From Arthrobacter sp. 35W (GTDB taxonomy: Bacteria; Actinomycetota; Actinomycetes; Actinomycetales; Micrococcaceae), in contig NZ_KI519454.1 in assembly GCF_000482545.1 (NCBI RefSeq), forward strand, positions 310,001 to 374,000: 64,000 nt of DNA, in the 5' to 3' direction. Below the pieces are notes generated by a model. That model saw only the letters and a list, made by a program, of their open reading frames with translations. It was not told the origin of the DNA and did not search any database. Numbering within the stretch: position 1 is the stretch's first letter; the number at the start of each line of letters is the position of its first letter. Below, piece after piece: positions 9,081 to 27,016 of the stretch. A program made the translations under genes and the position numbers.

Positions 9081-9138
9081 GACGCAGTTCCCCGCTGGGG
9101 ATGCGGTAGTAGACGCATCCCCAGCGGGGAACTGCGTC
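9081..9138. repeat. Dispersed hairpin repeat, copy downstream of nirD
   Basis: A 58-base nearly perfect palindrome, GACGCAGTTCCCCGCTGGGG facing its complement around a GTAGTAG-type loop. It is one member of a family found at about a dozen sites in this window; see the finding on the family. Confidence 0.8.
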
Positions 9139-9201
9139 TTTGGCTGTTCCGGTGGCTGGGCGCAGCCGAAAACTGGTGCGGCGTGGGTGTCCCGGCCGCC
9201 G

Positions 9202-10215: not shown

Positions 10216-10339
10216 CCACCCATGCTGGATCCGTGCCGCCCGGCGCTCGCGGTGCTGCATGGCGTTTGTGGACCATTCCCGCCCTCCGCCGCCCGGTGCA
10301 GGACGCGGATTCCCGCCTCGGACCCGGTTCCGTCGTCGC

Positions 10340-11200: not shown

Positions 11201-11220
11201 GCCCGAGTGCGGTGCCGGGG

Positions 11221-13071
11221 TTACAGGCCCAGGGCGGTGCGGACGTCGGCGAGGACGGCGTCGAGGGCGGTGCGGGCGCGGGTGCGGGCGGCGTTGAGGT
11301 CCGTCCGGCCGCCGACGTCGATGATGACCTCCAGGTAGCACTTGAGCTTGGGCTCGGTGCCGCTGGGGCGGATGATCACGCGGCTGCCGTCCTCGGTCAG
11401 GAACAGCAGGCCGTCGGTGGGCGGCAGCTGCTCCGAGCCGGCGGCCAGATCCGTGAAGACCTCGACGGCGGAGCCGCCAAAGGACGACGGTGGGCTCTGG
11501 CGCAGGGCGGCCATCATGGTGCCCAGCAGGGCCAGATTGTCCACCCGGACGCTGAGCTGGTCGCTGGCGTGCATGCCGTGTTCCAGGGAGAGGTCATCCA
11601 GCGTGTCGAAGAGCGTGCGCCCCGCAGCCTTGGCGGCGGCGGCCATTTCGGCAATCAGCAGGCCGGCGGAGATGCCGTCCTTGTCGCGCACCAGCTCCGG
11701 CGCCACACAATAGCCCAGCGCCTCCTCATAGCCGTAGACCAGTCCCGGCACGCGGGAGATCCACTTGAAGCCGGTGAGGGTCTGCTCGTGCCGGTAGCCC
11801 TGGGCCGCGGCAATGCGGGACAGCAGCCGCGAGGACACGATCGAGTTGGCAAAGACGCCCCCTGCGGCCGGTCCGCCCCCGCCGTCGGTGGCCAGCATGG
11901 CGCGGCGGGCAGCGACGTGGGCGCCCAGCAGCGCCCCCACCTCGTCCCCGCGCAGCATCCGCCATTCGCCGGTGGAGGGGTCCAGGGCTGCGGCGGCGGC
12001 CCTGTCGGCGTCGGGGTCGTTGGCCAATACCAGATCCGCGCCCAGCGAGGCGGCGGCGGCCAGGGCCAGGTCCAGGGCCCCGGGCTCCTCCGGATTGGGG
12101 AAGGATACGGTGGGGAATTCCGGGTCCGGCTCGGCCTGCTCGGTGACCAGCGTGACGTCGGCGAACCCAGCGGCCGCCAGCACGTCAGTGGCCGTTTCAC
12201 CGCCGACGCCGTGCATGGGCGTGAGCACAATCTTCAGTTTCCGCGCGGGGAAGGCCGCAGGGGCTGCCAGCGCGCCGATGGCCGTGCCGTAGCCCGATAC
12301 GAAATGGGCGTCCAGCACATGCCAGCCGGATTCGGCGAGGGCGATGCTGGACAGCGGCCCGACGGCAGCGATCTTCGCCGCGATCAGAGAGTCGTAGGGT
12401 GCCACGATCTGGGCGCCGCGCCCGGACTCCTCCACGGCCCGGCCGCCCAGGTAGACCTTGTAGCCGTTGTCCGCCGGCGGATTGTGGCTGGCGGTGACCA
12501 TCACCCCGGCCTCGGCATCCAGGGCACGGACGGCATAGGCCAGGATCGGCGTCGGCAGGGCCGCGGGGAGCAGGAAGGTGTCGATGCCGGCCGCCGTGAA
12601 AATGGCAGCCGTTTCCGCCGCGAAGACGTCCGAATTCCAGCGCGCGTCGTAGCCGACGACGGCGCGGGGCATGTAGGTGTTCGAGGGGTCCTTGGTGGCG
12701 GCCTCCAGCAAGAAGGCCGCCAGTCCCGCAGCGGCACGCCGCACCACCACACGGTTCATCCGGTTGGACCCCGGCCCCAGCGCCGCGCGCAGTCCGGCGG
12801 TGCCAAACTCCAGGGTTCCGTCGAAGGCATCCGCCAGCTCGCGCCGGGCCGCCGCAGCCTCGGCCGCAACACCGTCGGCGTCGGAAGCGTCGGCCCCGCC
12901 GTCGTCGTCGCCGCCGCCTCCAGAACCCGCCCCGCCGCCGTCGTCGCCGGCACCCGACGCACGGGCCATCAGCCTTCGCAGAGCCGCAGCCGTGGCCGGA
13001 TCCGGATCCTCCGCCGCCCAGCGTTCGGCCGTGTCGAGCAGGGACTCAAGTGCGTCGTCGTGCGTGGTCAT
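11221..13071 (-). CDS. Phosphoglucomutase/phosphomannomutase family enzyme
   Basis: Interconverts hexose or pentose 1- and 6(5)-phosphates in the cytosol; in this neighbourhood a phosphopentomutase-like or phosphoglucomutase role in nucleoside sugar salvage is plausible. The four-domain alpha-D-phosphohexomutase signature is complete: phosphoserine loop TASHNPP, metal loop NDPDADRA, sugar-binding GYEEALGY and phosphate-binding RPSGTEPKLKCYLEV. Length is 616 residues. Residues about 39-68 are an inserted stretch of Gly, Asp, Ala and Ser with no folded character, unusual for the family. The gene matches the PmmB position beside deoD/punA in mycobacteria. Start has no strong Shine-Dalgarno. Confidence 0.93.
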   Translation of the reverse strand: MTTHDDALESLLDTAERWAAEDPDPATAAALRRLMARASGAGDDGGGAGSGGGGDDDGGADASDADGVAAEAAAARRELADAFDGTLEFGTAGLRAALGPGSNRMNRVVVRRAAAGLAAFLLEAATKDPSNTYMPRAVVGYDARWNSDVFAAETAAIFTAAGIDTFLLPAALPTPILAYAVRALDAEAGVMVTASHNPPADNGYKVYLGGRAVEESGRGAQIVAPYDSLIAAKIAAVGPLSSIALAESGWHVLDAHFVSGYGTAIGALAAPAAFPARKLKIVLTPMHGVGGETATDVLAAAGFADVTLVTEQAEPDPEFPTVSFPNPEEPGALDLALAAAASLGADLVLANDPDADRAAAAALDPSTGEWRMLRGDEVGALLGAHVAARRAMLATDGGGGPAAGGVFANSIVSSRLLSRIAAAQGYRHEQTLTGFKWISRVPGLVYGYEEALGYCVAPELVRDKDGISAGLLIAEMAAAAKAAGRTLFDTLDDLSLEHGMHASDQLSVRVDNLALLGTMMAALRQSPPSSFGGSAVEVFTDLAAGSEQLPPTDGLLFLTEDGSRVIIRPSGTEPKLKCYLEVIIDVGGRTDLNAARTRARTALDAVLADVRTALGL

Positions 13072-13136
13072 GGCACACAGCCTAATTGTCGGGCGCCCCG
13101 GGAGGCGCTAAGCCGGGGTGGGGATTCAGCGGGACC

Positions 13137-13976
13137 TTAGAGCTTGGCGATGATCTGGGCGAGCAGCTTGGAGATCCGCGGGCCGGCGGCGGCGCCGGCC
13201 TCCAGCACCTCCTGGTGGTTCAGCGGTACGGGGCTGATGCCGGCGGCCAGGTTGGTCACCAGCGAGATGCCGAAGACCTCCATGCCGGCGTGTCGTGCCG
13301 CGATGGCCTCCAGCGCCGTGGACATGCCCACCAGATCAGCGCCGATCCGCTTGGCGTACTGCACCTCGGCGGGCGTCTCATAGTGCGGGCCGGTGAACTG
13401 GGCATAGACGCCCTCGTCCAGCGTGGGGTCCACCTCCCGGGCCACGGCGCGCAGCCGGGAGGAGTACAGGTCCGTCAGGTCCACGAAGGTGGCGCCCTCC
13501 AGCGGGGAGCTGGCGGTGAGGTTGATGTGGTCGCTGATCAGCACGGGCGTGCCGGGAGTCCACGCGGGGTTCAGCCCTCCGCAGCCGTTGGTCAGCACCA
13601 GCGTCTTGGCGCCGGTGGCGGCGGCGGTGCGCACGCCGTGGACGACGGCGCGCACGCCCTTGCCCTCGTAGAAGTGGGTGCGGGCGCCCAGCACCAGGGC
13701 GCGCTTGCCGCCGGGGGTCAGGATGGAGCGGATGGTGCCCACATGCCCCTCCACTGCGGGGGCGGAAAAGCCCGGGATGTCGGTGGAGGCCAGTGTGGCG
13801 GTGGTCTCACCGATCAGTTCGGCGGCGTCGCCCCAGCCGGAGCCCAGCACCAACGCCACATCGTGGCGTTCGACGCCGGTGGCCTCGGCAATGTAGGCGG
13901 CCGCGCTGCGGGCCAGCTCGAAGGGATCCGCGGCAGGGGCCGCGTGGCGGGCGGAAGAGGTCTCTGAAGTGCTCAC
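13137..13976 (-). CDS. punA: Purine-nucleoside phosphorylase, trimeric type
   Basis: Phosphorolyses purine (deoxy)nucleosides to base plus (deoxy)ribose 1-phosphate. The 279-residue sequence carries the phosphate loop LVLGSGWG, the ARTHFYEGKG histidine motif, NGCGGL, and HYETPAEVQY leading to the guanine/hypoxanthine site asparagine in SLVTNLAAG, all typical of the trimeric PNP family. The start is GTG at 13974-13976. It is transcribed toward the phosphoglucomutase 65 bases away, and is divergent from lpdA over 54 bases. With the mutase and DeoC it forms a nucleoside salvage route. Confidence 0.95.
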   Translation of the reverse strand: MSTSETSSARHAAPAADPFELARSAAAYIAEATGVERHDVALVLGSGWGDAAELIGETTATLASTDIPGFSAPAVEGHVGTIRSILTPGGKRALVLGARTHFYEGKGVRAVVHGVRTAAATGAKTLVLTNGCGGLNPAWTPGTPVLISDHINLTASSPLEGATFVDLTDLYSSRLRAVAREVDPTLDEGVYAQFTGPHYETPAEVQYAKRIGADLVGMSTALEAIAARHAGMEVFGISLVTNLAAGISPVPLNHQEVLEAGAAAGPRISKLLAQIIAKL

Positions 13977-13993
13977 CAGATCAACCTACCGGC

Positions 13994-14030
13994 TTGGTGG
14001 CGGGGCCGCGATAGGCGAGAATGATCAATT
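13994..14030 (+). promoter_or_regulatory. Candidate promoter of lpdA, leaderless
   Basis: TTGGTG at 13994-13999 and GAGAAT at 14017-14022 are 17 bases apart. Transcription would begin around 14029-14031, at or next to the GTG start of lpdA. No Shine-Dalgarno precedes that GTG, in keeping with leaderless translation, which is common in actinobacteria. Confidence 0.45.
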
Positions 14031-15458
14031 GTGACCAGCCAACATGATCTCTCGTCCTCCCTCTCCATTCCCAGCCTTGCCATTTTGGGCGGCGGTCCCG
14101 GCGGCTACGAGGCGGCCATGGTGGCGGCCTCCCTCGGCGCCCAGGTGACGGTGATCGAGCGCGCCGGACTCGGCGGCTCTGCCGTGCTGACCGACGTCGT
14201 GCCGTCCAAGACGCTCATCGCCACGGCCGACGCGATGACCCGCACGGTTGATGCCGCTGAACTCGGCGTGAAGTTCGACGTCGACGGCGCCAACGGCCAG
14301 CCGATCATGCGTGCGGACCTCAAGGAGGTCAACGAGCGCCTGCTGCGCCTGGCCAAGGAGCAGTCCGCCGACATCCGCGCGGGGCTGGAGAGCCTGGGCG
14401 TGAAGATCATCATTGGCCACGGCCGGATGCTGGACAACCGCACCATCGAGGTGGACCGCGGCGAGACGAGCGAGATCGTCAAGGCCGATGCCATTCTGCT
14501 GGCCGTGGGCGCCCACCCGCGCGAGCTGGCCACCGCCCAGCCCGACGGCGAGCGGATCCTGAACTGGGCCCAGATCTACAATCTGCAGGAACTTCCCCGC
14601 GAGCTCATAGTGGTGGGTTCCGGCGTCACGGGTGCCGAGTTCGCCTCCGCCTACAACGGCCTGGGCTCCAAGGTCACCCTGATATCCAGCCGCGACCAGG
14701 TGCTGCCGGGCGAGGATTCCGATGCCGCCCAGGTGCTGGAGGACGTGTTCGAGCGCCGCGGCATGACGGTGCTCTCCCGCTCCCGCGCCGAGTCCGTGGA
14801 ACGCACGGACGACGGCGTCGTCGTCACCCTGGGCGACGGCCGCAAGGTCACCGGTACGCACTGCCTGGTCTGCGTGGGCTCCATCCCCAACACCTCCGAT
14901 CTGGGTCTGGCGGCTGCCGGCGTCGAACTGACCCCCAGTGGCCACATCAGGGTGGACGGCGTCTCGCGCACCAGTGTGAACAATGTCTACGCCGCGGGCG
15001 ACTGCACGGGCGTCTTCGCTCTGGCCTCCGTGGCGGCCATGCAGGGCCGCATTGCCGTGGCGCACCTGCTGGGCGACGGCGTCAGCCCGCTGAAGCTGAA
15101 CCAGGTGTCCTCCAACATCTTCACCTCCCCGGAGATTGCTTCCGTGGGCGTGTCCGAGGCGGACCTGGCGGCGGGCAAGTACCAGGGCGATGTGATCAAG
15201 CTGTCGCTGCACACCAATGCCCGGGCCAAGATGCGCAACTTCAAGGACGGCTTCGTGAAGATCATTGCGCGCAAGGGCTCCGGCACAGTCATCGGCGGCG
15301 TGGTGGTGGGGGCTGGCGCCTCCGAGCTGATCTTCCCGATTGCCCTGGCCGTGTCACAGAAGCTGCACGTGGATGATGTGGCCAACACGTTCACCGTGTA
15401 CCCGTCGCTGTCCGGATCGATCTCCGAGGCCGCGCGCCGCCTGCACGTGCACCAATAG
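14031..15458 (+). CDS. lpdA: LpdA-type NAD(P)H quinone reductase (flavoprotein disulfide reductase family without the cysteine pair)
   Basis: 475 residues with the FAD motif LAILGGGPGGYEA, the NAD(P) motif VVGSGVTGAEFAS, the second FAD motif VYAAGDCTG and the C-terminal dimerisation domain of the disulfide reductase family. The redox-active CxxxxC is missing: the segment reads GLGGSAVLTDVVPSK. This matches mycobacterial LpdA (Rv3303c), a soluble NAD(P)H:quinone reductase rather than a lipoamide dehydrogenase. The placement near deoD and pmmB also matches mycobacteria. Start is GTG with no Shine-Dalgarno and a promoter placed for leaderless initiation. Confidence 0.88.
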   Translation: MTSQHDLSSSLSIPSLAILGGGPGGYEAAMVAASLGAQVTVIERAGLGGSAVLTDVVPSKTLIATADAMTRTVDAAELGVKFDVDGANGQPIMRADLKEVNERLLRLAKEQSADIRAGLESLGVKIIIGHGRMLDNRTIEVDRGETSEIVKADAILLAVGAHPRELATAQPDGERILNWAQIYNLQELPRELIVVGSGVTGAEFASAYNGLGSKVTLISSRDQVLPGEDSDAAQVLEDVFERRGMTVLSRSRAESVERTDDGVVVTLGDGRKVTGTHCLVCVGSIPNTSDLGLAAAGVELTPSGHIRVDGVSRTSVNNVYAAGDCTGVFALASVAAMQGRIAVAHLLGDGVSPLKLNQVSSNIFTSPEIASVGVSEADLAAGKYQGDVIKLSLHTNARAKMRNFKDGFVKIIARKGSGTVIGGVVVGAGASELIFPIALAVSQKLHVDDVANTFTVYPSLSGSISEAARRLHVHQ

Positions 15459-15495
15459 GCTGCTTCTTTGGCTGCTCCTTCTTTGGCTGCCCCAG

Positions 15496-16262
15496 CCGCT
15501 GGCGACGCAGTTTCCCGTTTGGGATGCGGTTGTAGTCATGTCCTGGGCGGGGAAGTGCGTCCTGGATGCAATGGTGCGTGCCGGATGGGCTCGACGTCGT
15601 GCGTCCGCCTCCACCGCCTTCGTCGGCGTGCGTCGAGTAGTCCCGGCGTCGCACCCATGCACTCGGCCTTAGTTGAGCGGTGTCTGCCGAGCCGAAATCC
15701 GCCCCCGGCGGCTGCTCCGGCCGCTGGCGACGCAGTTTCCCGTTGAGGATGCGGTTGTAGTCATGTCCTGGGCGGGGAAGTGCGTCCTGGATGCAATGGT
15801 GCGTGCCGGATGGGCTCGACGTCGTGCGTCCGCCTCCACCGCCTTCGTCGGCGTGCGTCGAGAGGTCCCGGCGTCGCACCCATGCACTCGGCGTTAGTTG
15901 AGCGGTGCCTGCGGAGCCGAGATCCGGCCGCTGCTGGCTGCTCCGGCCGCTGGCGACGCAGTTTCCCGTTGAGGATGCGGTAGTAGTCATGTCCTGAGCG
16001 GGGAAGTGCGTCCTGGATGCAATGGTGAGTGCCAGATGAGCTCGACGTCGTGCCTCCGCCTCCACCGCCGTCGTCGGCGTCCGTCGAGTAGTCCCGGCGT
16101 CGCACCCGTGCACTCGCGCTCGTTGAGCGGTGCCTGCGGAGCCGAGATCCGGTGGGTTGGAGTGCCCCAGCCGCTGGCGACGCAGTTTCCCGTTGAGGAT
16201 GCGGTTGTAGTCATGTCCTGGGCGGGGAAGTGCGTCCTGGATGCATTGGTGAGTGCCGGATG
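15496..16262. repeat. Three and a half tandem copies of a 225-bp repeat
   Basis: Copies begin with CCGCTGGCGACGCAGTTTCC at 15496, 15721, 15948 and 16171, so the period is 223-227 bases; the fourth stops after about 90 bases. Each unit starts with the dispersed hairpin element (GACGCAGTTTCCCGT ... GGGGAAGTGCGTCC) and continues with a non-palindromic part containing GCTCGACGTCGTGC and CGTCGCACCCATGCACTCG. Copies differ by scattered substitutions. Open frames across the block (both strands) simply follow the repeat and show no protein-like features. The block separates lpdA from the bioQ-like gene. Confidence 0.9.
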
Positions 16263-16293
16263 GGTGCTGCCACCGCCCGAGCGACGGCTGCGC

Positions 16294-16836
16294 CTACGGT
16301 GCGTTGAGGCCGCGGAGGATGGTGTCGATGCCGAACAGGAACGCGTCGTCGGGGGAGTGCCCGGCGTCGTTGGCTTCGACGGGGTCCAACAACCCGGCGC
16401 GCAGCAGCTCGGCCTGGGTCTGTTCCTCGGCCACCGAGCCCAGAATGTAGTGCGCCAGCGTACGCGCGCCCCAACTGGCTGCGCGTGCGTCCAGGCCGCC
16501 GTCGGCGAGCATGGTGCCTAGCCGCTGGATCGGCGCGAGGGACTGCGGGTCCAGGGCCTGGGCGAGCGCGACGACGTCGGCCCCGTCCCGAACCTTCAGC
16601 AGGGCCGTGCGGATGCCGGCAGCGCTGCGGCGCACATCCGGTTCCGAGCCGTCGACGGGTTCCAGGATCCGCTCCGCCAGCACCACCAGCAGCTCCTGCT
16701 TGTTCTTCACATGCCAGTAGAGCGCTCCGGGCTGGACGCCAAGATCGCGGGCGAGCCTGCGCATGGACAGGTCCGCCAGGCCGTAGCTGCTCAAAATCCC
16801 GAACGCCGTATCGACGATCTGCGCCCGTGAGAGCAT
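16294..16836 (-). CDS. bioQ: TetR-family repressor, probably BioQ
   Basis: 180 residues: an N-terminal TetR helix-turn-helix ([29 protein letters not shown]) and a C-terminal TetR_C-like ligand/dimer domain. The length and the divergent position 78 bases from bioB match actinobacterial BioQ, the repressor of biotin synthesis genes. Start at 16836 places the HTH at the usual distance; AGGAGAAT lies 5-12 bases upstream. The palindromes at 16908-16937 are the likely operator. A longer frame runs on past this ATG but covers bioB in antisense and is not coding. The assignment as BioQ rests on context, not on a search. Confidence 0.8.
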
Positions 16837-16879
16837 CCTTATTCTCCTTCTGTGGAACCGGTCCCATTCTGCCCCACGA

Positions 16880-16940
16880 TTGACATTGCCCCTGACGGTC
16901 AAGATACTTGCACAGTGTTCAATAAAACAGTGTTCAATAA
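16880..16940 (+). promoter_or_regulatory. bioB promoter with overlapping BioQ-type operators
   Basis: TTGACA at 16880-16885 and GATACT at 16903-16908 are exactly 17 bases apart, a near-consensus promoter. Immediately downstream are two palindromes, TTGCACAGTGTTCAA (16908-16922, two paired mismatches) and TAAAACAGTGTTCAA (16923-16937); they share the 13-base direct repeat CAGTGTTCAATAA at 16913 and 16928. The first overlaps the -10 box and predicted start point near 16914, so bound repressor would block polymerase. The regulator is inferred to be the divergent TetR protein. Confidence 0.65.
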
Positions 16941-18246
16941 TTCCGGCACCGCAATAGAGGCCCTCGATTTCGACGCCCTGGCCGGCCGCCAGCTCGACGG
17001 CGGCACCCTCACCGAGGCCGAGGCCCTGGCCGTACTGCGCTCCACCGACGGCGAGTTGATGGCCCTGGTGGCCGCGGCGTCGAGGCTGCGCCACGCCCAC
17101 TTTGCCAACACCGTCAAGGTGAACTACCTGGTCAACCTGAAGTCCGGCCTGTGCCCGGAGGACTGCGGCTACTGCTCCCAGCGCCTGGGCTCGGCCGCGC
17201 AGATCCTGAAGTACAGCTGGCTCAAGCCCGCCGAGGCCGTGGAGCAGGCCAGTTCCGGCATCGCCGCCGGCGCCTCCCGGGTGTGCCTGGTGGCCAGCGG
17301 CCGCGGCCCCAGTGACCGGGACGTGGACCGCGTCGCCTCCATTGTGGGCGAGCTGAAGGAGAGCTACCCGCAGGTGGAGGTGTGCGCCTGCCTGGGGATC
17401 CTGAAGGACGGCCAGGCCGGGCGGCTGCGCGACGCTGGGGTGGACGCCTACAACCACAATCTGAACACCAGCGAATCCAACTACGCCGAGATCTGCACCA
17501 GCCACGAGTACTCGGACCGCATCGCCACCGTGGAGCACGCCAAGTCCGCCGGGCTCTCGCCGTGCTCCGGGCTGATCGTGGGCATGGGGGAGAGCGAAGA
17601 GCAGCTGGTGGAGGCGGTGTTCGCCCTGCGCGGCCTGGGCAGCGATTCCATTCCGGTCAACTTCCTGATGCCCTTTGACGGCACGCCGCTTGCCGACACC
17701 TGGCTGCTCACCCCCGCCCAGTGCATCCGCATTCTGGCCCTGGTCCGGCTCGCCTGCCCGGCGGCGGAGCTGCGCATGGCCGGCGGGCGCGAAATGCACC
17801 TGCGCTCCCTGCAGCCGCTGGCCCTGCAGATCGCCAACTCGCTGTTCCTGGGCGACTACCTCACCAGCGAGGGCCAGGAGGCCGCCGCGGATCTGGCGAT
17901 GATCGCCGACGCCGGGATGGTGGTGCTGGGCGCCGACGGCGGTTCCGGCCCGGGTGCCGTGGCCGACGGGGGTGCGGCGGGTTCCGCGGGTGGTTCCTGC
18001 ACCGGCGCCACCGGCACCGTCGCTGCAGGACCGGACGGTGCCGGGCACGACCGGGCCGGGCAGGGCTGCGCGGGTTCGTGCTGTTCCGGCGGCGGATGCG
18101 GAACGGGTGCTGCGTCCTCCGACCCGGGTGCTGCGTCCTCCGAAACAGGCGCGGGCGCCGTCCCAGCCCCAGGCACCGGCGTGCCGGCGGATGCCGTGTC
18201 CATCCGCCGCCGCGGAGCCGGCACCACCGTGGCCCCCAATGCGTAG
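16915..18246 (+). CDS. bioB: Biotin synthase with Gly/Cys-rich C-terminal tail
   Basis: Radical SAM enzyme that inserts sulfur into dethiobiotin. The CxxxCxxC motif is CPEDCGYC at about residues 80-87; NLNTSESNY and the end of the TIM barrel ([19 protein letters not shown]) follow. I chose GTG 16915 because the promoter predicts transcription starting at that base; GTG 16930 is in frame and possible; no Shine-Dalgarno is visible for either. After about residue 340, where BioB normally ends, there is a tail of about 104 residues rich in Gly, Ala and Pro with five cysteines, including [12 protein letters not shown]. First gene of the biotin operon; its end overlaps the bioA ATG. Confidence 0.93.
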
Positions 18247-19648
18247 CGCCGCCATTACCGACACTGCCACTCCCGTCACTGCAGCCATTCCCGGCAGCAC
18301 GGCCGTGCCAAACAAGTCCGCTCCCGGAATGCGCCCCACGAGCCTGGCCGCGCGGGACGCCGGGCTGCTGTGGCACCCCTATGCGCCCTTGGACGGGCCC
18401 GCGCCCTACACGGTGCACGGCGCCTCGGGCGTGCGGCTGGACCTTCAGGGGCCCGACGGCGCCCGCTACGACGTCGTCGACGCCATGTCCTCCTGGTGGT
18501 GCATGGTCCACGGCTACCGCAACCCGGTGCTGGACGAGGCCCTGCGCCGCCAGATCGATACGTTCAGCCACGTGATGTTTGGCGGGCTGACCCATGCTCC
18601 GGCGGTGAAGCTGGCCGAGCGGCTGGTGGACCTCACGGGCGGAAAACTCCCGCATGTGTTCTTCGCGGACTCCGGCTCCGTCGCCGTGGAGGTGGCGCTG
18701 AAGCTGGCCGTGCAGTACCAGGCCGCAGTGGGCCGCCCGCGCCGCCAGCGCTTCCTGGCCCTGCGCGGCGGCTACCACGGGGACACCATCGGGGCCATGG
18801 GCGTGTGCGACCCCGTGGACGGGATGCACAGTGCCTTCCCCGGGCTGGTGGCGGAGCACGAGTTCCTGCCCCGCCCGCCCGCCGCCACGCTGGTGGACGG
18901 CGCGTTGGTGTCCGACGACGCCGAGGTGGCCGCCTGGATCGGCGTGCTGGAGGCTGTCGTGGCCCGGCACGAGGGAACGCTGGCGGGCATCATCATGGAA
19001 CCGGTGCTGCAGGGCGCCGGCGGGATGCACATCTACGCACCGGCGTGCCTGCGGGCCCTCCGCCGGGTGGCCAGCGAGCATGGGCTGCTGCTCATTGCCG
19101 ATGAGATCGCCACAGGTTTTGGCCGCACCGGCAGGCTCTTTGCCACCGACTGGGCCGGCATCACCCCTGACATTCTCTGCGTGGGCAAGGCGCTGACGGG
19201 CGGCTACCTGAGCCTGGCGGCCATGCTCTGCAGCGCCGAGGTGGGATCCGCCATCTCGGCCTCCGAGTTCCGGGCGCTGCTGCACGGGCCAACCTTCATG
19301 GCCAACCCGCTGGCCTGCGCCGTCGCCGATGCCTCGCTGGAACTCCTGGTGGCCTCCGGCTGGCAGGCCCAGGTGGCCCGGGTGGAACGGGGGCTGGCCG
19401 CTGCGCTGGCCCCGGCGTCGTCGCTGTCATCGGTCAAGGAGGTCAGCGTGCTGGGTGCCACGGGCGCCGTCCAGCTCCATGGCCCCGTGGATGTCCCAGC
19501 CGTAACGCGCGCGGGGCTGGAGCACGGGGTGTGGCTGCGGCCCTTCCGCGATCTGGTCTATGCGATGCCGCCGTACGTCAGCACCGAGGCCGATGTCGCG
19601 GCCATGGGTGCCGGCATGGTGGCCGCGATTGCGGCGGTGCACGGCTGA
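18239..19648 (+). CDS. bioA: Adenosylmethionine-8-amino-7-oxononanoate aminotransferase
   Basis: PLP enzyme converting 7-keto-8-aminopelargonate to 7,8-diaminopelargonate with SAM as amino donor. Typical BioA features are [11 protein letters not shown] near residue 43, [20 protein letters not shown], the [13 protein letters not shown] loop, the aspartate in [14 protein letters not shown] and the PLP lysine in [10 protein letters not shown]. The ATG at 18239 lies inside the last codons of bioB (8-base overlap), arguing for translational coupling; ATG 18329 would remove a low-complexity N-terminus of 30 residues and is a possible alternative. It ends in TGATG with the bioF start. Confidence 0.95.
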
Positions 19649-20847
19649 TGGGCGCCACCACCGAGTGGCTCGAGGGCCGCGAACGCGTCCGGATCCAACG
19701 CGGCCTTGTCCGCGAAGACACCGTCCGCGTAGACACTGTCCGCGACGGCAAATCCCCGCTGCTGGATCTGGCCTCCAACGACTACCTGGGCCTGTCCACC
19801 GACCCCCGCCTGGCGGCGGCCGCCATTGCCGCGATCCACCGCCACGGCACCGGTGCCCGGGCCTCCCGCGTGGTCACCGGCACCTCCGCCGTCCACCACG
19901 AACTGGAGCAGGAGCTCTGCACGCTCACCGGGGCCGAATCCGCTCTGGCGTTCTCCAGCGGCTATGCGGCCAACCTGGGTCTGCTGGGCGCGCTCGGGGG
20001 ACCGGGCACGCTGATGGTGCTGGACGAGCACATCCACGCCTCCCTAATCGATGCCGCCCGGCTCTCGCGGGCCGAGGTGGCCACCTGCGCGCATTCCGAC
20101 CTGGCCGCGCTGCGCGCCCTGCTGGCCGGTCGCACCCAGCCGCGCGCCGTCGTTGTACTGGAATCCGTCTACTCGGTGCTGGGCGACGCGGCGCCGCTGG
20201 CCGAGGCCGCGCGCCTGTGCCGGGAGTTCGACGCCCTGCTGGTGGTGGATGAGGCCCACGGCATCGGCGTCACCGGAGGCGGGGCGGGCAGCGTACACGC
20301 CGCCGGGCTGGCCGGGCGCGACGACGTCGTGGTGACGGCCACGCTGTCCAAGGCGCTCGGCGCGCAGGGCGGGGCCGTGCTGGGCTCCGCGCTGCTGCGC
20401 CGGCATCTGGTCAACACCGCCCGCACCTTCATCTTCGACACCGGCCTTGCCCCGGCTGCCGCGGCCGCTGCGTCCGAGGCCTGCCGGATCATCGCCGCGG
20501 AGCCGGAGCGCGTTGCGGCAGTGTCGCGCAATGCCGCGCTGCTGGCCGCCGGCTGTGGCACCGAGGCGGCCGCCGGCGCCGTTCAATCGATCCGCGTTGG
20601 AGCGCCGGAGCGGGCTCTGGCCATCGCCGCCCGGCTGCAGAGCCAGGGCCTGCTGGTGGGCTGCTTCCGCCCACCCAGCGTGCCCGACGGCGTGTCCCGG
20701 CTCCGGCTCACCGCCCGGGCCGATCTGTCGACCGAGCAGGTGCGGCACGCCGCCGGGCTCGTTTCCACTGCGCTCGCGGAACAGCCGGACGCCGACGAGC
20801 AGGCGGCCGCCGGCCCCGGCGCCGCCGGCGCGGGGGAGGCGGCATGA
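19648..20847 (+). CDS. bioF: 8-amino-7-oxononanoate synthase
   Basis: PLP-dependent condensation of pimeloyl thioester with L-alanine. Among its 399 residues are LDLASNDYLGLS near residue 40, the substrate-binding histidine region GTGARASRVVTGTSAVHHELE, DEAHGIGVTGG and the PLP lysine in TATLSKALGAQGG. The ATG overlaps the bioA stop by one base (TGATG). The C-terminal 20 residues are an Ala/Gly/Asp-rich tail. The next gene starts within its stop codon (ATGA), so bioF and the P450 are coupled. Confidence 0.95.
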   Translation: MGATTEWLEGRERVRIQRGLVREDTVRVDTVRDGKSPLLDLASNDYLGLSTDPRLAAAAIAAIHRHGTGARASRVVTGTSAVHHELEQELCTLTGAESALAFSSGYAANLGLLGALGGPGTLMVLDEHIHASLIDAARLSRAEVATCAHSDLAALRALLAGRTQPRAVVVLESVYSVLGDAAPLAEAARLCREFDALLVVDEAHGIGVTGGGAGSVHAAGLAGRDDVVVTATLSKALGAQGGAVLGSALLRRHLVNTARTFIFDTGLAPAAAAAASEACRIIAAEPERVAAVSRNAALLAAGCGTEAAAGAVQSIRVGAPERALAIAARLQSQGLLVGCFRPPSVPDGVSRLRLTARADLSTEQVRHAAGLVSTALAEQPDADEQAAAGPGAAGAGEAA

Positions 20848-21914
20848 GCTACCACGTCGTCTCCGAACCCTCCACAGTGCGCGAGGTGCTGCGCCGGGTG
20901 GACGACTTCCTCCCCACGAACGCCCTGACCGCCGTCGTGCCGCTCAGCCCTGGCGCCCGACGGATCCTGGCCCGGGAACGCTTTGCCCTGCCGCCGATCC
21001 TGGCCTCGGCCACGGGGGAGCAGCACCGGCACGTGCGTTCCATGGTGGCCGGCTTCTTCACACCCGCCACCGTCGCGAGGATCGGACCCCGCGTCCGCGA
21101 AATCAGCCGGGAACGGGCGCTCGCCGCCCTGGCTGGGCTGGATGACGGCCCAGTGGATCTGGCCGATGCTGTCGCCAAGCACATCCCGCCGCTGATCATG
21201 GCCGAGCTCATCGGCGTCGACTGCCCGGATCTGGACCTCTTCAAGCGTTGGAGCCGGGACTCGCTGGAGCTGTTTTGGGGCTGGCCGGATGAGGAGCGGC
21301 AGTTGGTGCTGGCCGCCAGCGCCGCCGAATTCTACGGCTGGCTGCGCGGCGTGGTGCTGGCGAGCCGCGGTGGGGATTCGCTCTTCGGCGTGCTGGATGC
21401 GGCCGGATTGTCGACGGCGGAGATCTGCTCGCTGGGCTACTTTCTGGTCATCGCCGGGCAGGAAACCACCTCGCAGCTGATCGCCACCACGCTGCACCGG
21501 GCGGTTGCGGACTCCGCCACCTGGGCGGCCGTGGCGGAGTCGGAGGACGCCGCCGGGGCCTTTGTCCGGTCCGTACTGGCGACGGAATCCTCCGTCCACA
21601 CCTGGCGGCGGGCCACCGCCCACGCCACCGAGCTCGACGGCGTCGAGCTTCCGGCAGGCTCGGAAATCCTGCTGGAACTCAGCGGCCGCCACGGCGAGGA
21701 CTCCCGCCCCACCGCCTACTCGCTGGCCTTTGGCTACGGGCTGCACCGATGCCTCGGCGCCAAACTGGCTGAAATGGAGACCACGCTGGTGCTCCACGAA
21801 ACGGCCCGGGTGCTGCCGGGCGTGCGGCCCAGCGGACCGGATCCCGAGTGGCTGCGGCTGCTCTCGTTCCAGGCGCCGCTGACAGTTTTTGTTGAGGGAG
21901 CTTCACATGCCTAG
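20844..21914 (+). CDS. Cytochrome P450 in the biotin operon, lacking the ExxR motif
   Basis: A P450 of 356 residues, about 40-50 shorter than usual bacterial ones. The heme-ligand loop FGYGLHRCLG (cysteine near residue 303), the I-helix IAGQETTS near residue 203 and the C-helix GEQHRHVRSMVAGFFTP are intact. At the K-helix, where nearly all P450s have ExxR, the aligned residues are SVLA (in FVRSVLATESSVHTWRR), and the meander before the heme loop is very short. It overlaps bioF by 4 bases and bioD by 8. By analogy with Bacillus BioI it may cleave an acyl chain to a pimeloyl precursor; no bioC, bioH or bioW is in the operon. The role is inference. Confidence 0.88.
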   Translation: MSYHVVSEPSTVREVLRRVDDFLPTNALTAVVPLSPGARRILARERFALPPILASATGEQHRHVRSMVAGFFTPATVARIGPRVREISRERALAALAGLDDGPVDLADAVAKHIPPLIMAELIGVDCPDLDLFKRWSRDSLELFWGWPDEERQLVLAASAAEFYGWLRGVVLASRGGDSLFGVLDAAGLSTAEICSLGYFLVIAGQETTSQLIATTLHRAVADSATWAAVAESEDAAGAFVRSVLATESSVHTWRRATAHATELDGVELPAGSEILLELSGRHGEDSRPTAYSLAFGYGLHRCLGAKLAEMETTLVLHETARVLPGVRPSGPDPEWLRLLSFQAPLTVFVEGASHA

Positions 21915-22716
21915 GGCACTGGTTGGTGCGCCGCGTGTCCTGCTGGTCACCGGGACCGATACGGACGTGGGCAAGACGATCGCGACGGCGGCGCTGGCTG
22001 CCGCGCTGACGGCCGGCGGGAGGTCCGTGGCGGTGTACAAACCGGTGCAGACCGGTGTGTCTGGGGATGCGCCGGGCGACGCCGCCGAGGTCCGCCGCCT
22101 GGCCGGGACCGGCGGCGTCCACGAGGGCATCCGGTTGACCGAACCCATGGCCCCCGTGCCCGCCGCGGTGGTCGACGGTGCGGAGCTGCCGTCGCTGGAG
22201 CAGCATGTGCAGAGGGTTCACGGGCTGGCCGAGGCCCACGACCACGTGCTGGTGGAGGGTGCCGGCGGGCTGCTCGTGGAGCTGGACGGAGCCGGCAACA
22301 CCCTGGCGGAGCTGGCCGGTGCGCTGGCGCCGGACGCCGCCGTCGTGCTGGTGGCGCGGAGTGCGCTGGGTACGCTCAACCACGTGGCGCTGACCCTGGA
22401 GGCGCTGGAACGGCGCGGGCTGCCGGTGCTTGGCCTCGTGATCGGCTCGTGGCCGGAGGCCCCGGACGCCGTCGAACTTTCCAACCGGGAGCATTTCGCC
22501 GCCCTGGACACCCCGCTGCTGGCCGCCATCCCCGCCGGCGCCGCCGCCCTGCCACCCAAAGTGTTCCGGAAGCGGTCCGCCGGATGGTTCGGCGCCCCTC
22601 CGGACCCGCCCCGGCGAACGCGTCCCCTGCTGGCGACGCAGTTTCCCTCCGAGGATGCCGTTGTAGTCATGTCCCGGAAGGGAAACCGCGTCATGGGAGC
22701 CGGAGTGCAGTTCTAG
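21907..22716 (+). CDS. bioD: Dethiobiotin synthetase with repeat-derived C-terminus
   Basis: ATP-dependent closure of the ureido ring from diaminopelargonate and CO2. The P-loop is VTGTDTDVGKT near residue 13, followed by KPVQTGV and EGAGGLLVELD. GAGGGAG lies 8-14 bases upstream of the ATG, which overlaps the P450 stop. Length is 269 residues, about 30 more than typical, because the last 30 or so codons run through a dispersed hairpin repeat (22634-22692). The gene is convergent with the aerolysin-like gene and the two stop codons overlap. It closes the operon. Confidence 0.94.
   Translation: MPRALVGAPRVLLVTGTDTDVGKTIATAALAAALTAGGRSVAVYKPVQTGVSGDAPGDAAEVRRLAGTGGVHEGIRLTEPMAPVPAAVVDGAELPSLEQHVQRVHGLAEAHDHVLVEGAGGLLVELDGAGNTLAELAGALAPDAAVVLVARSALGTLNHVALTLEALERRGLPVLGLVIGSWPEAPDAVELSNREHFAALDTPLLAAIPAGAAALPPKVFRKRSAGWFGAPPDPPRRTRPLLATQFPSEDAVVVMSRKGNRVMGAGVQF
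22634..22692. repeat. Dispersed hairpin repeat inside the 3' end of bioD
   Basis: GACGCAGTTTCCCTCCGAGG ... GGGAAACCGCGTC with the central TTGTAGTC element, matching the family consensus. It lies wholly within the bioD frame and encodes approximately residues 244-262. Confidence 0.8.
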
Positions 22717-23849
22717 CGCACTTCGATGGGTGCCGAGCCCGGCTGCTGTGACACGACGGTGGTGCCCTTGGGTCCGTTCAAGGTCCACACGCCATGGCCG
22801 GAGGCATCCGGGCTGTCGAAATAGACATCGTGCAGCTTCCAGGTGGTGTTGCCCATGGTGATGGTGAAGGTCCCCGTATCGCGGACCATCGGCTCCGACG
22901 CCGTCAGCCAGACCGATCCGAAGGGCGGAACATCCGCCTCGACAGACTCGCTGAACGTGTGCTGCTTGGTCCACTCGTGGTTGTATTGGGCGCTGATCTC
23001 CGCATCGATGATGCCGAACAGGGTGGTGCCGGCCTTGACGCCAACGCCCAAACTGTCGCTCACCCCGACGGTGTCCTGGCCCGAGACGGTCTTGCGGGAG
23101 GTCATATTGGTGGGGTTGTTGTAGGTGTGGCCTACCTGGTGTTCGGGACCCTGGATCTTTTCCTGCTTGGTGGCGGTGAACTTGCAGGTTGCCGCACTGG
23201 ACTTCATGCACAGGTCCTTCAGCACCTGTGCCTGGGCCTGCGCCAGCGATGCGGGGATGTTCTGCACAGTCCCAGGCGCGTTCAGGATGTAGACATCGGT
23301 GCCGCTGAATTGCAGGACGAAGCTGCCGCCGGCGCTGGAGAAGGGGAAGCTCGGCACCCCGATGAGCGGGTCGATCCTCATCCCGAGCCTGGCCTCGGCG
23401 CCGTTGCCCAGATTGTAGGAAACGGTGGCGGAGTTCCAATTGGAGGCGAACAGCCACTCCATCTCCCAGCGGTCGCTGCTGCCCGGCTGCAGGACGTGCC
23501 CCACATCCGGGCGGCCGCCGGGGAAGCCCGCGTTCAGTTCCAGCTTCGAGACCGTGATGGGCTCGCTCGTCAGGTTGTGGACATTGAATCCGCGGGTGTA
23601 TGAGGCGGCCATGGTGCCCGACGTCGACGCCGCCATCATCGATGACTCCTTGTCGTCGAGGGCCGGGGTCACCGGTGTGGCGGCATTGGCGGCCGCCGGT
23701 GTCAGGACGAGGGCTCCGAGGAGCAGCGGGGCCATGGCGGCGAGCAGCACCCGGCGGCCGCGCTTCCGCGGACGCTTGGGCGTCGGGCGGCCCTTGCCCT
23801 GCGGGGTTGCGGTGTTCTCGTTCTTCGGGTTCTTGGCTGCTGTCGTCAT
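22713..23849 (-). CDS. Secreted protein, candidate aerolysin/ETX-MTX2-type beta-pore-forming fold
   Basis: 378 residues with a basic N-terminus, a hydrophobic signal segment and a cleavage site around PAAANA-ATP near residue 57. The mature part is rich in beta-type Ser/Thr/Val/Gly patterns. From about residue 255 the order (KTVSGQDTVGVSDS, then GVGVKAGTTLFGIIDAEIS, AQYNHEWTKQHTFSESV, and VPPFGSVWLTASE) resembles the insertion-loop and flanking strands of aerolysin-fold toxins: an amphipathic stretch between two Ser/Thr-rich strands, then a proline-plus-glycine turn. AAGGAG precedes the ATG. It faces bioD and no immunity or processing gene is adjacent. The fold is my reading; without a profile search a different secreted beta-protein is possible. 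Confidence 0.55.
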   Translation of the reverse strand: MTTAAKNPKNENTATPQGKGRPTPKRPRKRGRRVLLAAMAPLLLGALVLTPAAANAATPVTPALDDKESSMMAASTSGTMAASYTRGFNVHNLTSEPITVSKLELNAGFPGGRPDVGHVLQPGSSDRWEMEWLFASNWNSATVSYNLGNGAEARLGMRIDPLIGVPSFPFSSAGGSFVLQFSGTDVYILNAPGTVQNIPASLAQAQAQVLKDLCMKSSAATCKFTATKQEKIQGPEHQVGHTYNNPTNMTSRKTVSGQDTVGVSDSLGVGVKAGTTLFGIIDAEISAQYNHEWTKQHTFSESVEADVPPFGSVWLTASEPMVRDTGTFTITMGNTTWKLHDVYFDSPDASGHGVWTLNGPKGTTVVSQQPGSAPIEVR

Positions 23850-23971
23850 TGGTTTCTCCTTGATCGTGGCCGCTGTTCTGCGGGTATGAATCAAGATTCG
23901 CCGAATCCGGGCACCCGTGTTGCCAGCCGATTGGTGGATCAGCCGGGTGACGCCGGGGCGCCGATGGGTGG

Positions 23972-24007
23972 ACGCGTCGTGTCCTCCGATCGGGGGACAG
24001 GACGCGT
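23972..24007. other. 36-bp imperfect palindrome downstream of the histidine kinase
   Basis: Arms ACGCGTC/GACGCGT enclose GTCCTCCGATCGGGGGAC, itself almost a perfect palindrome. It lies between the histidine kinase stop (24061) and the start of the secreted protein (23849). No T-run follows, so it may be a rho-type end, an mRNA-stabilising hairpin or an operator. Confidence 0.4.
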
Positions 24008-24060
24008 TTCCGGGGCACCGTGGCGGGCCCAGAACACGGCCGGCCAGGAACACCGCCGGG

Positions 24061-25281
24061 TCAGGGGACCGGAACCGCGATGCTGACAGCCGTGCCGTGC
24101 GGCTCCACCGGCACGACGTCGAAGCGTCCGCCCGCGGCCTGGATCCGTGCGCGCTGGGATGCCAGCCCGATGTGCCCCTCGCCCAGCCGGGCCGGGAGCG
24201 ACGCCGGATCCAGCCCGCCGCCGTCGTCGGCCACCTCCAGCCGCGCCTGCCCATCGCGGAGGGCGAGCACCACCGTGACACGGCTGGCTCCGGCATGCTT
24301 GGCGACGTTGCCCACCAGCTCCCGGGCTGCGGCGTACAGCAGCGCATCGACGCCGGTCCGCAGATCCTGGGGCCAGCCGGCCGTGTCGACGACGGCGATG
24401 AACCCGCCGCGGGCCTGCGCGCCGTGGGCCAGCGCAGCCACGGCGCCGGCCAGCCCGGCCTGGGCCAGCACGGCCGGATGCAGCTCGGTCACGGTGGAGC
24501 GCAGCAGCTGCGAGGACTCCGTGAGGGCATGGTCGATCCGAGCCAGCGGCTCGGAGGCGTCCGGACCGCGGGCATCGGGGAGATCCTGCCGGGCGGCAAG
24601 GATGTACTGGAGGGCGCCGTCGTGCAGGGCCTCGGCCAGGGCCTGCCGTTCCCTGTCCTCGATGCCGAGCAGGTCCGCCAGCAGCTCCGTGCGGCTTTCC
24701 ACCAGCCCGGCGATGGTCCGCACGCGGGAGCGCTGGACGTGCGAGAGGGCGATGCAGCCCGCACCCAGGCCGGCGATCACCAGCGTGCGCAGGGCCACCG
24801 ACTCCCAGGGCTCGGCGTTGGCGCTCCGGGTGGCGATGTTCGTGCCCAAATAGACCAGCACCGTGGGGGCCACAACTGCCGCGCACACGCCGGGCCGCAG
24901 CTGGCTGGCGGCAAGCACCGGGATCAGGAACAGGCCGTTGGCCAGCACGTCCGCCGTCCAGCTCTGCTCCGACGACAGGCCGGTCGCCAGGGACAGCGAG
25001 CCCAGCAGGGCGACGTCGGCGAACAGCGCCAGCCACGCGAGCCGGACCGCCGTCGGACCTCCCCGCCAGACCCAGGCGGCGACGGCGGCAGCGAAGACGG
25101 CGTAGCCCCCGGCGGCCGCGAAGCAGGCAGCGGTGTCATTGGCCGGCGGCACCAGAACGAGGGTGAGCACCACGAAGGCCACCAGCACCGCCCGCAGCGC
25201 GAGCTGGATGTGCACGCCGCTGCGGGCATGCTTGAGGAACGCGGCGGATACGGCGGGGCCGGCCATCAGTCCATCGGCCAT
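24061..25281 (-). CDS. Two-component sensor histidine kinase, NarL/DesK class
   Basis: 406 residues. About six hydrophobic segments occupy the first 190 residues (for instance ALRAVLVAFVVLTLVLV and LVIAGLGAGCIALS), then a HisKA_3 dimerisation helix with the phospho-acceptor histidine in EALAEALHDGALQYIL, and a C-terminal HATPase with ELVGNVAKHAGA (N box) and DDGGGLDP (G1 box). The ATG overlaps the response regulator stop by one base (TGATG), so the pair is coupled with the regulator first. The sensed signal is not apparent; there is no extracellular sensor domain, so it may sense within or at the membrane. Confidence 0.9.
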   Translation of the reverse strand: MADGLMAGPAVSAAFLKHARSGVHIQLALRAVLVAFVVLTLVLVPPANDTAACFAAAGGYAVFAAAVAAWVWRGGPTAVRLAWLALFADVALLGSLSLATGLSSEQSWTADVLANGLFLIPVLAASQLRPGVCAAVVAPTVLVYLGTNIATRSANAEPWESVALRTLVIAGLGAGCIALSHVQRSRVRTIAGLVESRTELLADLLGIEDRERQALAEALHDGALQYILAARQDLPDARGPDASEPLARIDHALTESSQLLRSTVTELHPAVLAQAGLAGAVAALAHGAQARGGFIAVVDTAGWPQDLRTGVDALLYAAARELVGNVAKHAGASRVTVVLALRDGQARLEVADDGGGLDPASLPARLGEGHIGLASQRARIQAAGGRFDVVPVEPHGTAVSIAVPVP

Positions 25282-25922
25282 CAGTCCAGCAGGCCGCGCC
25301 GCATGGCCTCCGCCACGGCCTGGGCACGGTCGGCGACGCCGAGCTTCTCGTACAGCCGCGCCGTGTAGGTCTTGACGGTGCTGGCCCCGAGGAACAGCTC
25401 GGCTCCCACCTGCGGGATGGACAGGCCTCGGGCGAAGCCTTGCAGAACCTGGAGTTCGCGCTCGCTCAGCACCGGCACCTCGGGGGCGGCGCGCAGCCTG
25501 ATCTGGGCCACCAGGGCCCCGGCGAGCTCGGGCGGCAGCACCGTCTGGCCGCGGGCAATCTTCAGCACGGCGTCGACAATCTCCGTCCTCGGGGCGTCCT
25601 TGGACAGGTAGCCCGCGGCGCCCTCCTCCATGGCCTTGTAGACCACAGTGCTGTCCGTGAAGGCCGACAGCAGGAGCACCCGGGTGGGCAGCTGCTCATG
25701 GGCCAGGGCACGGACCAGGCCGACGCCGTCGAGCTGGGGCATCTGGTAGTCCACCACGGCGACGGCGGGCCGCTCGGTGCGCAGCAGGGCCAGGGCCTCC
25801 ACGCCGTTGCCGGCCTCGCCCACCACCTGGATCTGGGGGCTCTGGGCGAGTCCACGCTTGACCCCGTCGCGGAAGAACGGATGATCGTCCACCACAACCA
25901 CCGTTACCGGTGCATCCGACAT
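25281..25922 (-). CDS. LuxR/NarL-type response regulator
   Basis: 213 residues: receiver domain with the acidic pair in VVVVDDHPFFRDG, phospho-acceptor aspartate in VAVVDYQMPQLDG and the conserved lysine in LSKDAPR; then a LuxR helix-turn-helix (LSERELQVLQGFARGLSIPQVGAELFLGASTVKTYTARLYEKLGV). It pairs with the kinase whose start overlaps its stop. Targets are unknown; the neighbouring secreted-protein gene and nitrate genes are candidates only by proximity. Confidence 0.93.
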   Translation of the reverse strand: MSDAPVTVVVVDDHPFFRDGVKRGLAQSPQIQVVGEAGNGVEALALLRTERPAVAVVDYQMPQLDGVGLVRALAHEQLPTRVLLLSAFTDSTVVYKAMEEGAAGYLSKDAPRTEIVDAVLKIARGQTVLPPELAGALVAQIRLRAAPEVPVLSERELQVLQGFARGLSIPQVGAELFLGASTVKTYTARLYEKLGVADRAQAVAEAMRRGLLD

Positions 25923-26052
25923 GGCGCCTCCTGGCCTCGTGGCCTCCGGGTCGACGGCGGCTGGCAGGTCGGCGCCGTTGAACCAGACACTAGCGCCAGC
26001 GGTGGGATAAAGACAGGACTCCGCGCGATTGGAGCGTCCCCCGGCCGCTGGC

Positions 26053-26110
26053 GACGCGGTTTCCCGCTGAGGACGCAGTAGTAGTCATGTCCCGGGCGGG
26101 GAACTGCGTC
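26053..26110. repeat. Dispersed hairpin repeat between response regulator and nucleotidyltransferase
   Basis: GACGCGGTTTCCCGCTGAGG ... GGGGAACTGCGTC around AGTAGTAGTC; a family member with one substitution in the outer arm. It lies just 36 bases beyond the nucleotidyltransferase stop. Confidence 0.75.
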
Positions 26111-26146
26111 CTGGGAGCAGGACTGCGTCGCGGGAGCAGGGGCGCG

Positions 26147-26884
26147 TCAGCGCTCGCCGCGGAGGAAGCCTTCCTGGACATAGCCGCCGGACCTGTGCAA
26201 AACCGCACGGGCCAGCATGGAGAGGGATTCCACGGGTCGCTGGGGATCGGCTGCCCACGCATTCAAGGCAACGGCGAGGTGGTCCCCACTCAGCGCGAGG
26301 CGGCGGGGGATCCATTTGCCGCCGCCAAGCCAGCTGCCGTTCTCGAGAAGCAGCAGATCGGCCGCCTCCCGGAAAACATCTGCGGCCAGCATAAAGGTCT
26401 CGGCGGGGTTCGTGCTGCCGTCCAGATCGTCGACGAGGGCGCTCAAACCGTAGCGGCGAAGGCCGCGTTCGCCGTCGGTCAGGGGCTCCGGGCCTCGGGA
26501 CATCTGCGCCTGGGCCTCCGCCTGCCACGCCGCGCCGCCGTCGTCGTCCGTGAGGAGCACGCCCCTGGCGCACAGATCGGCGATCACGGGGCGCCGGTCC
26601 GCCGCCTCCTTCTGGTACCAGAACTCCAGACTGGCCGGGGTGTGCACGAACGCCTCGATGAGCCAGCCCCGGAACCGGATGGTCTCGGCGTAGTTGGAAT
26701 GTCCGTCCGGGTAGAGCACTGCGATGTCCAGGTCCGACGTCGTTGTCGCGTTCCCTGCGGCGGCACTGCCCCCAAGGATGGCGGCGCGGGCATCGGGGTG
26801 GTGCTCCTGGACGTAGGCACGGGCAATCACGATGACGTCCGCCCGCACCAGATCGTTGGGGGCGGCATCGACGGGCAGGCTCAT
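26147..26884 (-). CDS. Nucleotidyltransferase-fold protein
   Basis: 245 residues. The minimal nucleotidyltransferase signature is clear: ILGGSAAAGNATTTSDLDIAVL near residue 35, giving the GS...DxD metal ligands, with a possible third acid in IEAFVH. The rest is mostly helical and unassigned, similar in outline to aminoglycoside adenylyltransferase-like or MNT-like proteins. The ATG at 26884 is preferred because a longer frame continues into a dispersed repeat (26927-26984) that is clearly not coding. No HEPN partner gene sits beside it, so an MNT/HEPN toxin-antitoxin pair is not supported. Substrate unknown. Confidence 0.75.
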   Translation of the reverse strand: MSLPVDAAPNDLVRADVIVIARAYVQEHHPDARAAILGGSAAAGNATTTSDLDIAVLYPDGHSNYAETIRFRGWLIEAFVHTPASLEFWYQKEAADRRPVIADLCARGVLLTDDDGGAAWQAEAQAQMSRGPEPLTDGERGLRRYGLSALVDDLDGSTNPAETFMLAADVFREAADLLLLENGSWLGGGKWIPRRLALSGDHLAVALNAWAADPQRPVESLSMLARAVLHRSGGYVQEGFLRGER

Positions 26885-26926
26885 GCGCCCAGTCTGCCAC
26901 CGCCGTCGGGCGCATCCCTCGCTGGG

Positions 26927-26984
26927 GACGCAGTTCCCCGCCCAGGATGCTGTTGTAGACATGTCCTGGGCAGGGAACTGCGTC
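26927..26984. repeat. Dispersed hairpin repeat upstream of the nucleotidyltransferase
   Basis: GACGCAGTTCCCCGCCCAGG ... CAGGGAACTGCGTC around TTGTAGAC. Family member; lies between the nucleotidyltransferase start and the nitrate reductase operon end. Confidence 0.8.
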
Positions 26985-27016
26985 ATGGATGCAGGAGTGC
27001 GCCCGGGGAGCGCCCT

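Follow-up and report, generated by a model that had tools for sequence, protein, structure and literature searches.

A cytochrome P450 is encoded within the biotin operon of Arthrobacter sp. 35W. It belongs to a conserved family of P450s linked to biotin genes, and one lineage of that family lacks both the ExxR motif and the meander. ExxR is a motif long held to be nearly essential in P450s. From sequence and genomic context we consider it probable that the protein is a BioI-like enzyme, predicted to make the pimeloyl thioester used by BioF, and that its ExxR motif decayed after it had joined the pathway. To our knowledge the source of pimelate carbon in many actinobacteria is unsettled outside a few species.

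The stretch of DNA analyzed (the window, 64,000 nucleotides) is part of a genome of 4.66 Mb. The operon has the gene order bioB-bioA-bioF-P450-bioD, all on the forward strand, and ends at 22716. bioB lies at 16915..18246 and bioA at 18239..19648; both starts are uncertain, the frames being open from 16852 and 17954 respectively. bioF (19648..20847) scores under the TIGR00858 cut-off of 426.45. The P450 reading frame (20844..21914) encodes 356 amino acids from an ATG whose overlap with the bioF stop is 4 bases long (20844-20847). The ATG of bioD, the dethiobiotin synthase gene (21907..22716), gives an 8-base overlap with the end of the P450 gene, but since an in-frame TTG at 21889 is also present the bioD start is a matter of choice. 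A gene for a TetR-family regulator (16294..16836, reverse strand) is divergent from bioB, in a BioQ-like placement. Comparison of the operon reading frames with family profiles found no bioC, bioH or bioW among them, and a Pfam p450 search of the whole genome gave a single match, which is the operon P450. The two overlaps and the lack of bioC, bioH and bioW in the operon agree with what the preliminary description of this DNA had stated.

Some other features of this region were seen. BioB has a Gly/Ala/Cys-rich stretch, encoded at 17950-18246, with CCSGGGC close to its C-terminal end. A tandem array of units of about 225 bp (15485-16264) lies beside the TetR gene. A dispersed palindromic repeat occurs in the window at 9081-27012, 36614, 50505, 63382 and 63601, in overlapping families of a 63-nt unit (13 copies) and a 102-nt unit (eight copies). 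One copy (22619-22720) takes in the 3' end of bioD.

The BioQ operator is reported to have the consensus TGAAC-N3-GTTCA (PMC3398298). Of 179 loci, many of them short or not extending as far as bioB, 64 contain an exact match. In the loci compared the matches lie at the start of bioB (for example in L034 and L059), and P450-free operons carry the sequence too. The window has a single match with one mismatch (16909..16921, forward strand), likewise at the bioB start, where 0.78 such matches are expected by chance in the window; this is a possible BioQ operator.

The Pfam p450 profile matches the P450 with 30.0 bits against a cut-off of 22.8, its best stretch covering only residues 287-319. A phmmer search of PDB chains covered residues 3-348, with 5gwe as the best match (E = 8.2e-33). 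The N-terminus is short, so that residue 3 of the P450 pairs with residue 35 of 5gwe. The helices, the meander and the E-R-R triad are given their usual P450 names, and the structural statements rest on alignments. The I-helix sequence AGQETT (residues 204-209; 21453..21470, forward strand, as are all the following) has the (A/G)GxxT pattern of P450s, and the heme-ligand loop FGYGLHRCLG (residues 296-305; 21729..21758) has the pattern FxxGxHxCxG, with Cys303 at 21750-21752. At the K-helix the site of ExxR reads SVLA (residues 243-246; 21570..21581). S243-V-L-A246 is aligned by phmmer with E-V-L-R of 5gwe, and 15 of 15 other P450s from related genomes have ExxR at that position of the alignment. 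The meander (residues 280-294; 21681..21725) is shortened; the measured stretch is 17 residues long, against 29 in five outgroup rows of the tree. The retained cysteine loop and I-helix, the SVLA sequence and the cut meander had all been read from the sequence in the preliminary description, and the alignments bear this out. Since CYP157 shows that ExxR is not absolute, the window protein still counts as a P450.

We collected 98 loci with a match, and aligned the 76 non-redundant proteins that they encode; this set leaves out two of the P450-containing genomes of the family (G148 and G220). The 18 loci from named relatives are mostly from Arthrobacter, together with Specibacter, Salinibacterium, Cryobacterium, Zhihengliuella and Glutamicibacter, and in several of them the P450 is identical to that of genomes in the window's genus. 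The A, G, Q, T and T of AGQETT are present in all 76 sequences and the E in 75, with E changed to Y in one row. The ligand cysteine is present in all 75 rows that reach that position. The sequence SSVHTWRR (residues 249-256; 21588..21611) contains a signature of the family, W-R-R being found in 76 of 76. Position 243 is E in 13 relatives and position 246 is R in six, both being present in five: L065 and L084 (ETLR), L076 (EVLR), and L087 and L092 (ECLR). A loose scan for a nearby E..R gave 13 of 76, and those beyond the true ExxR motifs were out of register. With the incomplete L047 excluded, 75 relatives could be compared for the meander stretch: in 70 it is 11-20 residues long, in four (L048, L073, L075 and L081) it has 30-37 residues with a Pro/Gly-rich stretch, and in L076 it has 29 residues, equal to the outgroup.

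A survey of bio operons in Micrococcaceae had been suggested in the preliminary description, and we find that all 76 non-redundant P450 loci are located in a biotin cluster. In 60 the P450 gene directly follows bioF, in seven it is fused to it, in eight it follows bioD, and in one it lies beside bioD at a contig edge. Where bioF and the P450 gene are adjacent the latter overlaps the bioF stop in 31 of 60 pairs, by 4 bases in 25, given P450 starts chosen by script. No extra conserved gene, for example for an ACP or a ferredoxin, was found within the operon among the loci compared. Eight loci (L048, L077-L082 and L110) have the order bioB-bioA-bioF-bioD-P450, and this arrangement is accompanied by a second type of BioB, only 33-36% identical to that of the window.

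The P450 is present in 71 of 245 genomes of the family, with matches down to E = 2.8e-45; the next match (1.5e-43) is a 33% paralogue. A TIGR00858 search matched 175 of the 245 genomes, none above cut-off. Because that profile apparently does not separate BioF from a related enzyme, the window BioF was taken as the query, and at E ≤ 1e-70 BioF is found in 84 of 245 genomes. It is present in 69 of the 71 genomes with the P450. In the two exceptions the locus is cut at a contig edge (G105), or a more distant BioF lies in the same open frame as the P450 (G118). The 15 BioF genomes lacking the P450 all retain bioF, bioA and bioD, and in 13 of them bioB was also seen. Inspection of the neighbors of bioF by eye and by BLAST of conserved reading frames, in seven of these 15 loci, revealed no obvious pimelate gene. 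One of the 15 (G144, locus L059) has bioB, bioA and bioD, and a bioF match broken by three stop codons, a point on the side of a role for the P450 in pimelate formation.

Fusion to BioF is the strongest single result in favor of a role in pimelate formation. In seven of the 76 loci (L065, L083, L084, L087, L088, L092 and L114) the reading frame of BioF continues into the P450 with no stop codon in between. These span four genera (g3, g13, g14 and g15), and six of the seven share a linker CPFxxxDxRP. NCBIfam profiles place bioF at 16-386 of the L065 fusion and P450 models within 458-666. Pfam (E = 0.001), applied to four fusions, recognized both domains in L088 and the BioF part only in L065, L083 and L114, whose P450 part was recognized through alignment with relatives. 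Such a fusion suggests that the two proteins act one directly after the other, and the reaction that precedes BioF is the formation of the pimeloyl thioester.

Related P450s are found more widely in actinobacteria. A survey of the order gave matches at E ≤ 1e-42 in 11 of 396 genomes, two of them outside the window's family. A survey of the phylum with the window P450 as query, which scored few candidates per genome, gave three of 296 at 1e-40, one of them new (G805). There some 2.2 kb separates the P450 gene from bioD, bioF and bioB follow further on, and the intervening gene is transporter-like by eye. That threshold probably missed distant members, because with the G805 P450 as query a sister P450 was found in 73 of 121 genomes of a second actinobacterial family, that of G805 (E ≤ 1e-50), and in nine of 202 genomes in a survey of the class (1e-38), of which five were new. 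In the second family 19 of 20 relatives fetched have biotin genes no more than about 6 kb away from the P450 gene, which points towards them from the opposite strand; with G805 included, such proximity holds for 20 of 21 loci. A small gene, methyltransferase-like by eye (8676-9344 of L133), lies directly upstream of the P450 gene in G805 and in six of the 20 relatives fetched. Three of the five newcomers of the class survey (G1046, G1108 and G1062) also sit with biotin genes. Counting against the link to biotin, no biotin gene was found near the P450 in G933, one of the 21 second-family loci, wider flanks included, nor in the stretches fetched for two of the five new class matches, G1157 and G1057. 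G1157 (locus L175), for which 18.5 kb was fetched, also has AGQST in place of AGQET in the I-helix.

These relatives exist in three living states. All 29 non-redundant proteins of the second family retain E(G/S)LR, with a somewhat short meander in a few. L076, G805, G1046 and G1108 keep both ExxR and the meander, G1062 and L084 have kept ExxR and lost the meander, and the lineage of the window P450 has lost both. The simplest order of events would be that the P450 joined the biotin pathway, then lost the meander and finally lost ExxR. This order stays inferred because the tree was built quickly: 19 of its 77 inner branches are open, and several of its rows are long. On it ExxR changes at least three times, a count that is blind to loss versus gain.

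We examined other routes to pimelate by profile searches of 80 genomes, 65 with the P450 and 15 without. BioW was found in none of the 80, and nor was BioC above cut-off; weaker BioC matches occurred in 66, and the three that were scanned were Tam-like. In the window genome the BioC profile TIGR02072 gave 64.5 bits against a cut-off of 184.95, in the same place as a match to the Tam profile NF010703 of 352.2 bits against a cut-off of 320. At E ≤ 1e-50 Tam is present in 65 of the 80 genomes, being found in 59 of the 65 with the P450 and six of the 15 without, so the two are not mutually exclusive. Tam is reported to be the BioC of Mycobacterium smegmatis (PMC9302846), and hence a BioC-BioH route may exist in P450-containing genomes. 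The preliminary description had proposed that the P450 replaces BioC/BioH or BioW. Only half of this is supported: it agrees with the lack of BioW and of a BioC above cut-off in the 80 genomes, but Tam is present in the window genome and most others. Six P450 genomes of the 80 have no Tam, no BioC above cut-off and no BioW. Nine genomes of genus g6 (L051, L053, L055, L057 and L060-L064) have bioBAFD and lack the P450, Tam, BioW and BioC above cut-off; these either are auxotrophic for pimelate or obtain it by a different route.

The co-occurrence with Tam bears on a different role for the P450, since it could be an active enzyme of the biotin pathway whose target is a different step or a side product. 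It might modify a biotin precursor, oxidize an off-pathway intermediate, or provide a second, O2-dependent source of pimelate in addition to a housekeeping Tam/BioH route. Some operons lack the P450, and P450s of Streptomyces are reported to serve biotin-like antimetabolites (PMC13336041). Yet apart from the P450 the operon is an ordinary bioBAFD set, the P450 is fused to BioF and not to a late enzyme, and there are the six genomes of the 80 with none of Tam, BioC above cut-off and BioW. We therefore regard such a role as unlikely, while giving it some weight.

It is considerably less probable that the protein is a dead P450 derivative that stabilizes BioF or channels for it, comparable to the P450-derived glycosyltransferase activators of TIGR04515. 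The loss of ExxR and meander, and the overlap and fusion with BioF, might be expected of a helper of this kind, and there is a match to TIGR04515 of 48.3 bits, far under the cut-off of 343. The members of TIGR04515 have lost the cysteine, whereas here it is present in every row that reaches it and AGQETT is nearly invariant. Lastly, the absence of a near-universal motif could reflect a decaying gene or, as the preliminary description had named among possible refutations, a sequencing error at the K-helix. The same loss is seen in 71 of the 76 relatives, whose assemblies are separate, and dN/dS is 0.07-0.33 (NG86; 12 close pairs chosen by hand). With the state of the motif conserved across relatives and purifying selection on the gene, chance, sequencing error and decay are untenable as explanations, and we give them a negligible probability.

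We therefore return to the formation of pimelate, the role put forward in the preliminary description. It is well supported by the linkage, the co-occurrence with BioF and the fusions, together with the operon position, the conserved catalytic motifs and the purifying selection, and it is unproven. Against it stand the presence of Tam in the window genome, and the 15 bioF genomes that lack the P450, nine of which lack Tam also. The dispensability of BioI in B. subtilis (PMC11089781) and the lack of a conserved ACP or ferredoxin gene in the operon among the loci compared likewise count against it. In the mechanism that we propose, the P450 would oxidize a fatty-acyl thioester, probably acyl-ACP, in successive rounds and cleave a C-C bond, giving a pimeloyl thioester that the neighboring BioF would condense with alanine. 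Electrons would presumably come from general redox partners, and the heme would have to be incorporated without the E-R-R triad.

Several known systems may be compared with this P450. BioI of Bacillus subtilis (CYP107H1) is reported to be a biotin-operon P450 that forms a pimeloyl thioester, and to be dispensable in that organism (PMC11089781). Like BioI the window P450 is encoded with biotin genes, but unlike it most of the family lack ExxR and meander, and in some genera there is fusion to BioF. The best PDB matches of the window P450 are 5gwe/5xjn and 6kbh/6ldl, and the BioI entries were not among the best 60 of 300 PDB matches. Membership of the same CYP family, such as CYP107, corresponds to over 40% identity. 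The family is perhaps of separate descent from BioI.

The nearest precedent is MkpG of Streptomyces. Deletion of mkpG, whose product is a P450 called a BioI homologue, is reported to abolish formation of alpha-methyl-KAPA, as does deletion of the BioF-like mkpD (PMC13336041). By analogy this lends genetic support to an actinobacterial P450 that feeds a BioF-like enzyme. MkpG, compared here by its description, differs from the window P450 in that its gene lies in a cluster for an antimetabolite, which also encodes a dedicated ACP and ketosynthase, and not in a primary operon. Judged likewise from description, CYP157 shares with the window P450 only the missing standard ExxR. Its reported motifs EVLW and EQSLW retain the E but carry W at the R position, and its genes are conservon-linked (PMC3599690), whereas in most of the window family neither the E nor the R of the motif is left, the meander is lost as well, and the link is to biotin. 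Fusions of BioW to BioF are also known (PMC9544090). They too join an enzyme that forms pimeloyl thioester (putatively so for the P450) to BioF, but BioW is an ATP-dependent ligase and N-terminal, whereas the P450 is C-terminal. In the open-licence literature we found no description of a biotin-operon P450 of Micrococcaceae or of a BioF-P450 fusion.

A broader reading, to which we give an even chance, is that these P450s represent a widespread and undescribed O2-dependent route to pimelate in actinobacteria. A dedicated P450, sometimes fused to BioF, would cut fatty-acyl-ACP and pass the C7 unit to BioF, and one lineage would have come, via living intermediates, to dispense with the whole E-R-R triad (ExxR and the meander Arg) while remaining in primary metabolism. 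Because the P450 is so tied to BioF, and in four genera forms one protein with it, the source of pimelate in actinobacteria becomes a directly testable question. The family is also a natural series for the function of ExxR and the meander, as the same type of locus is found with both, with ExxR alone, and with neither.
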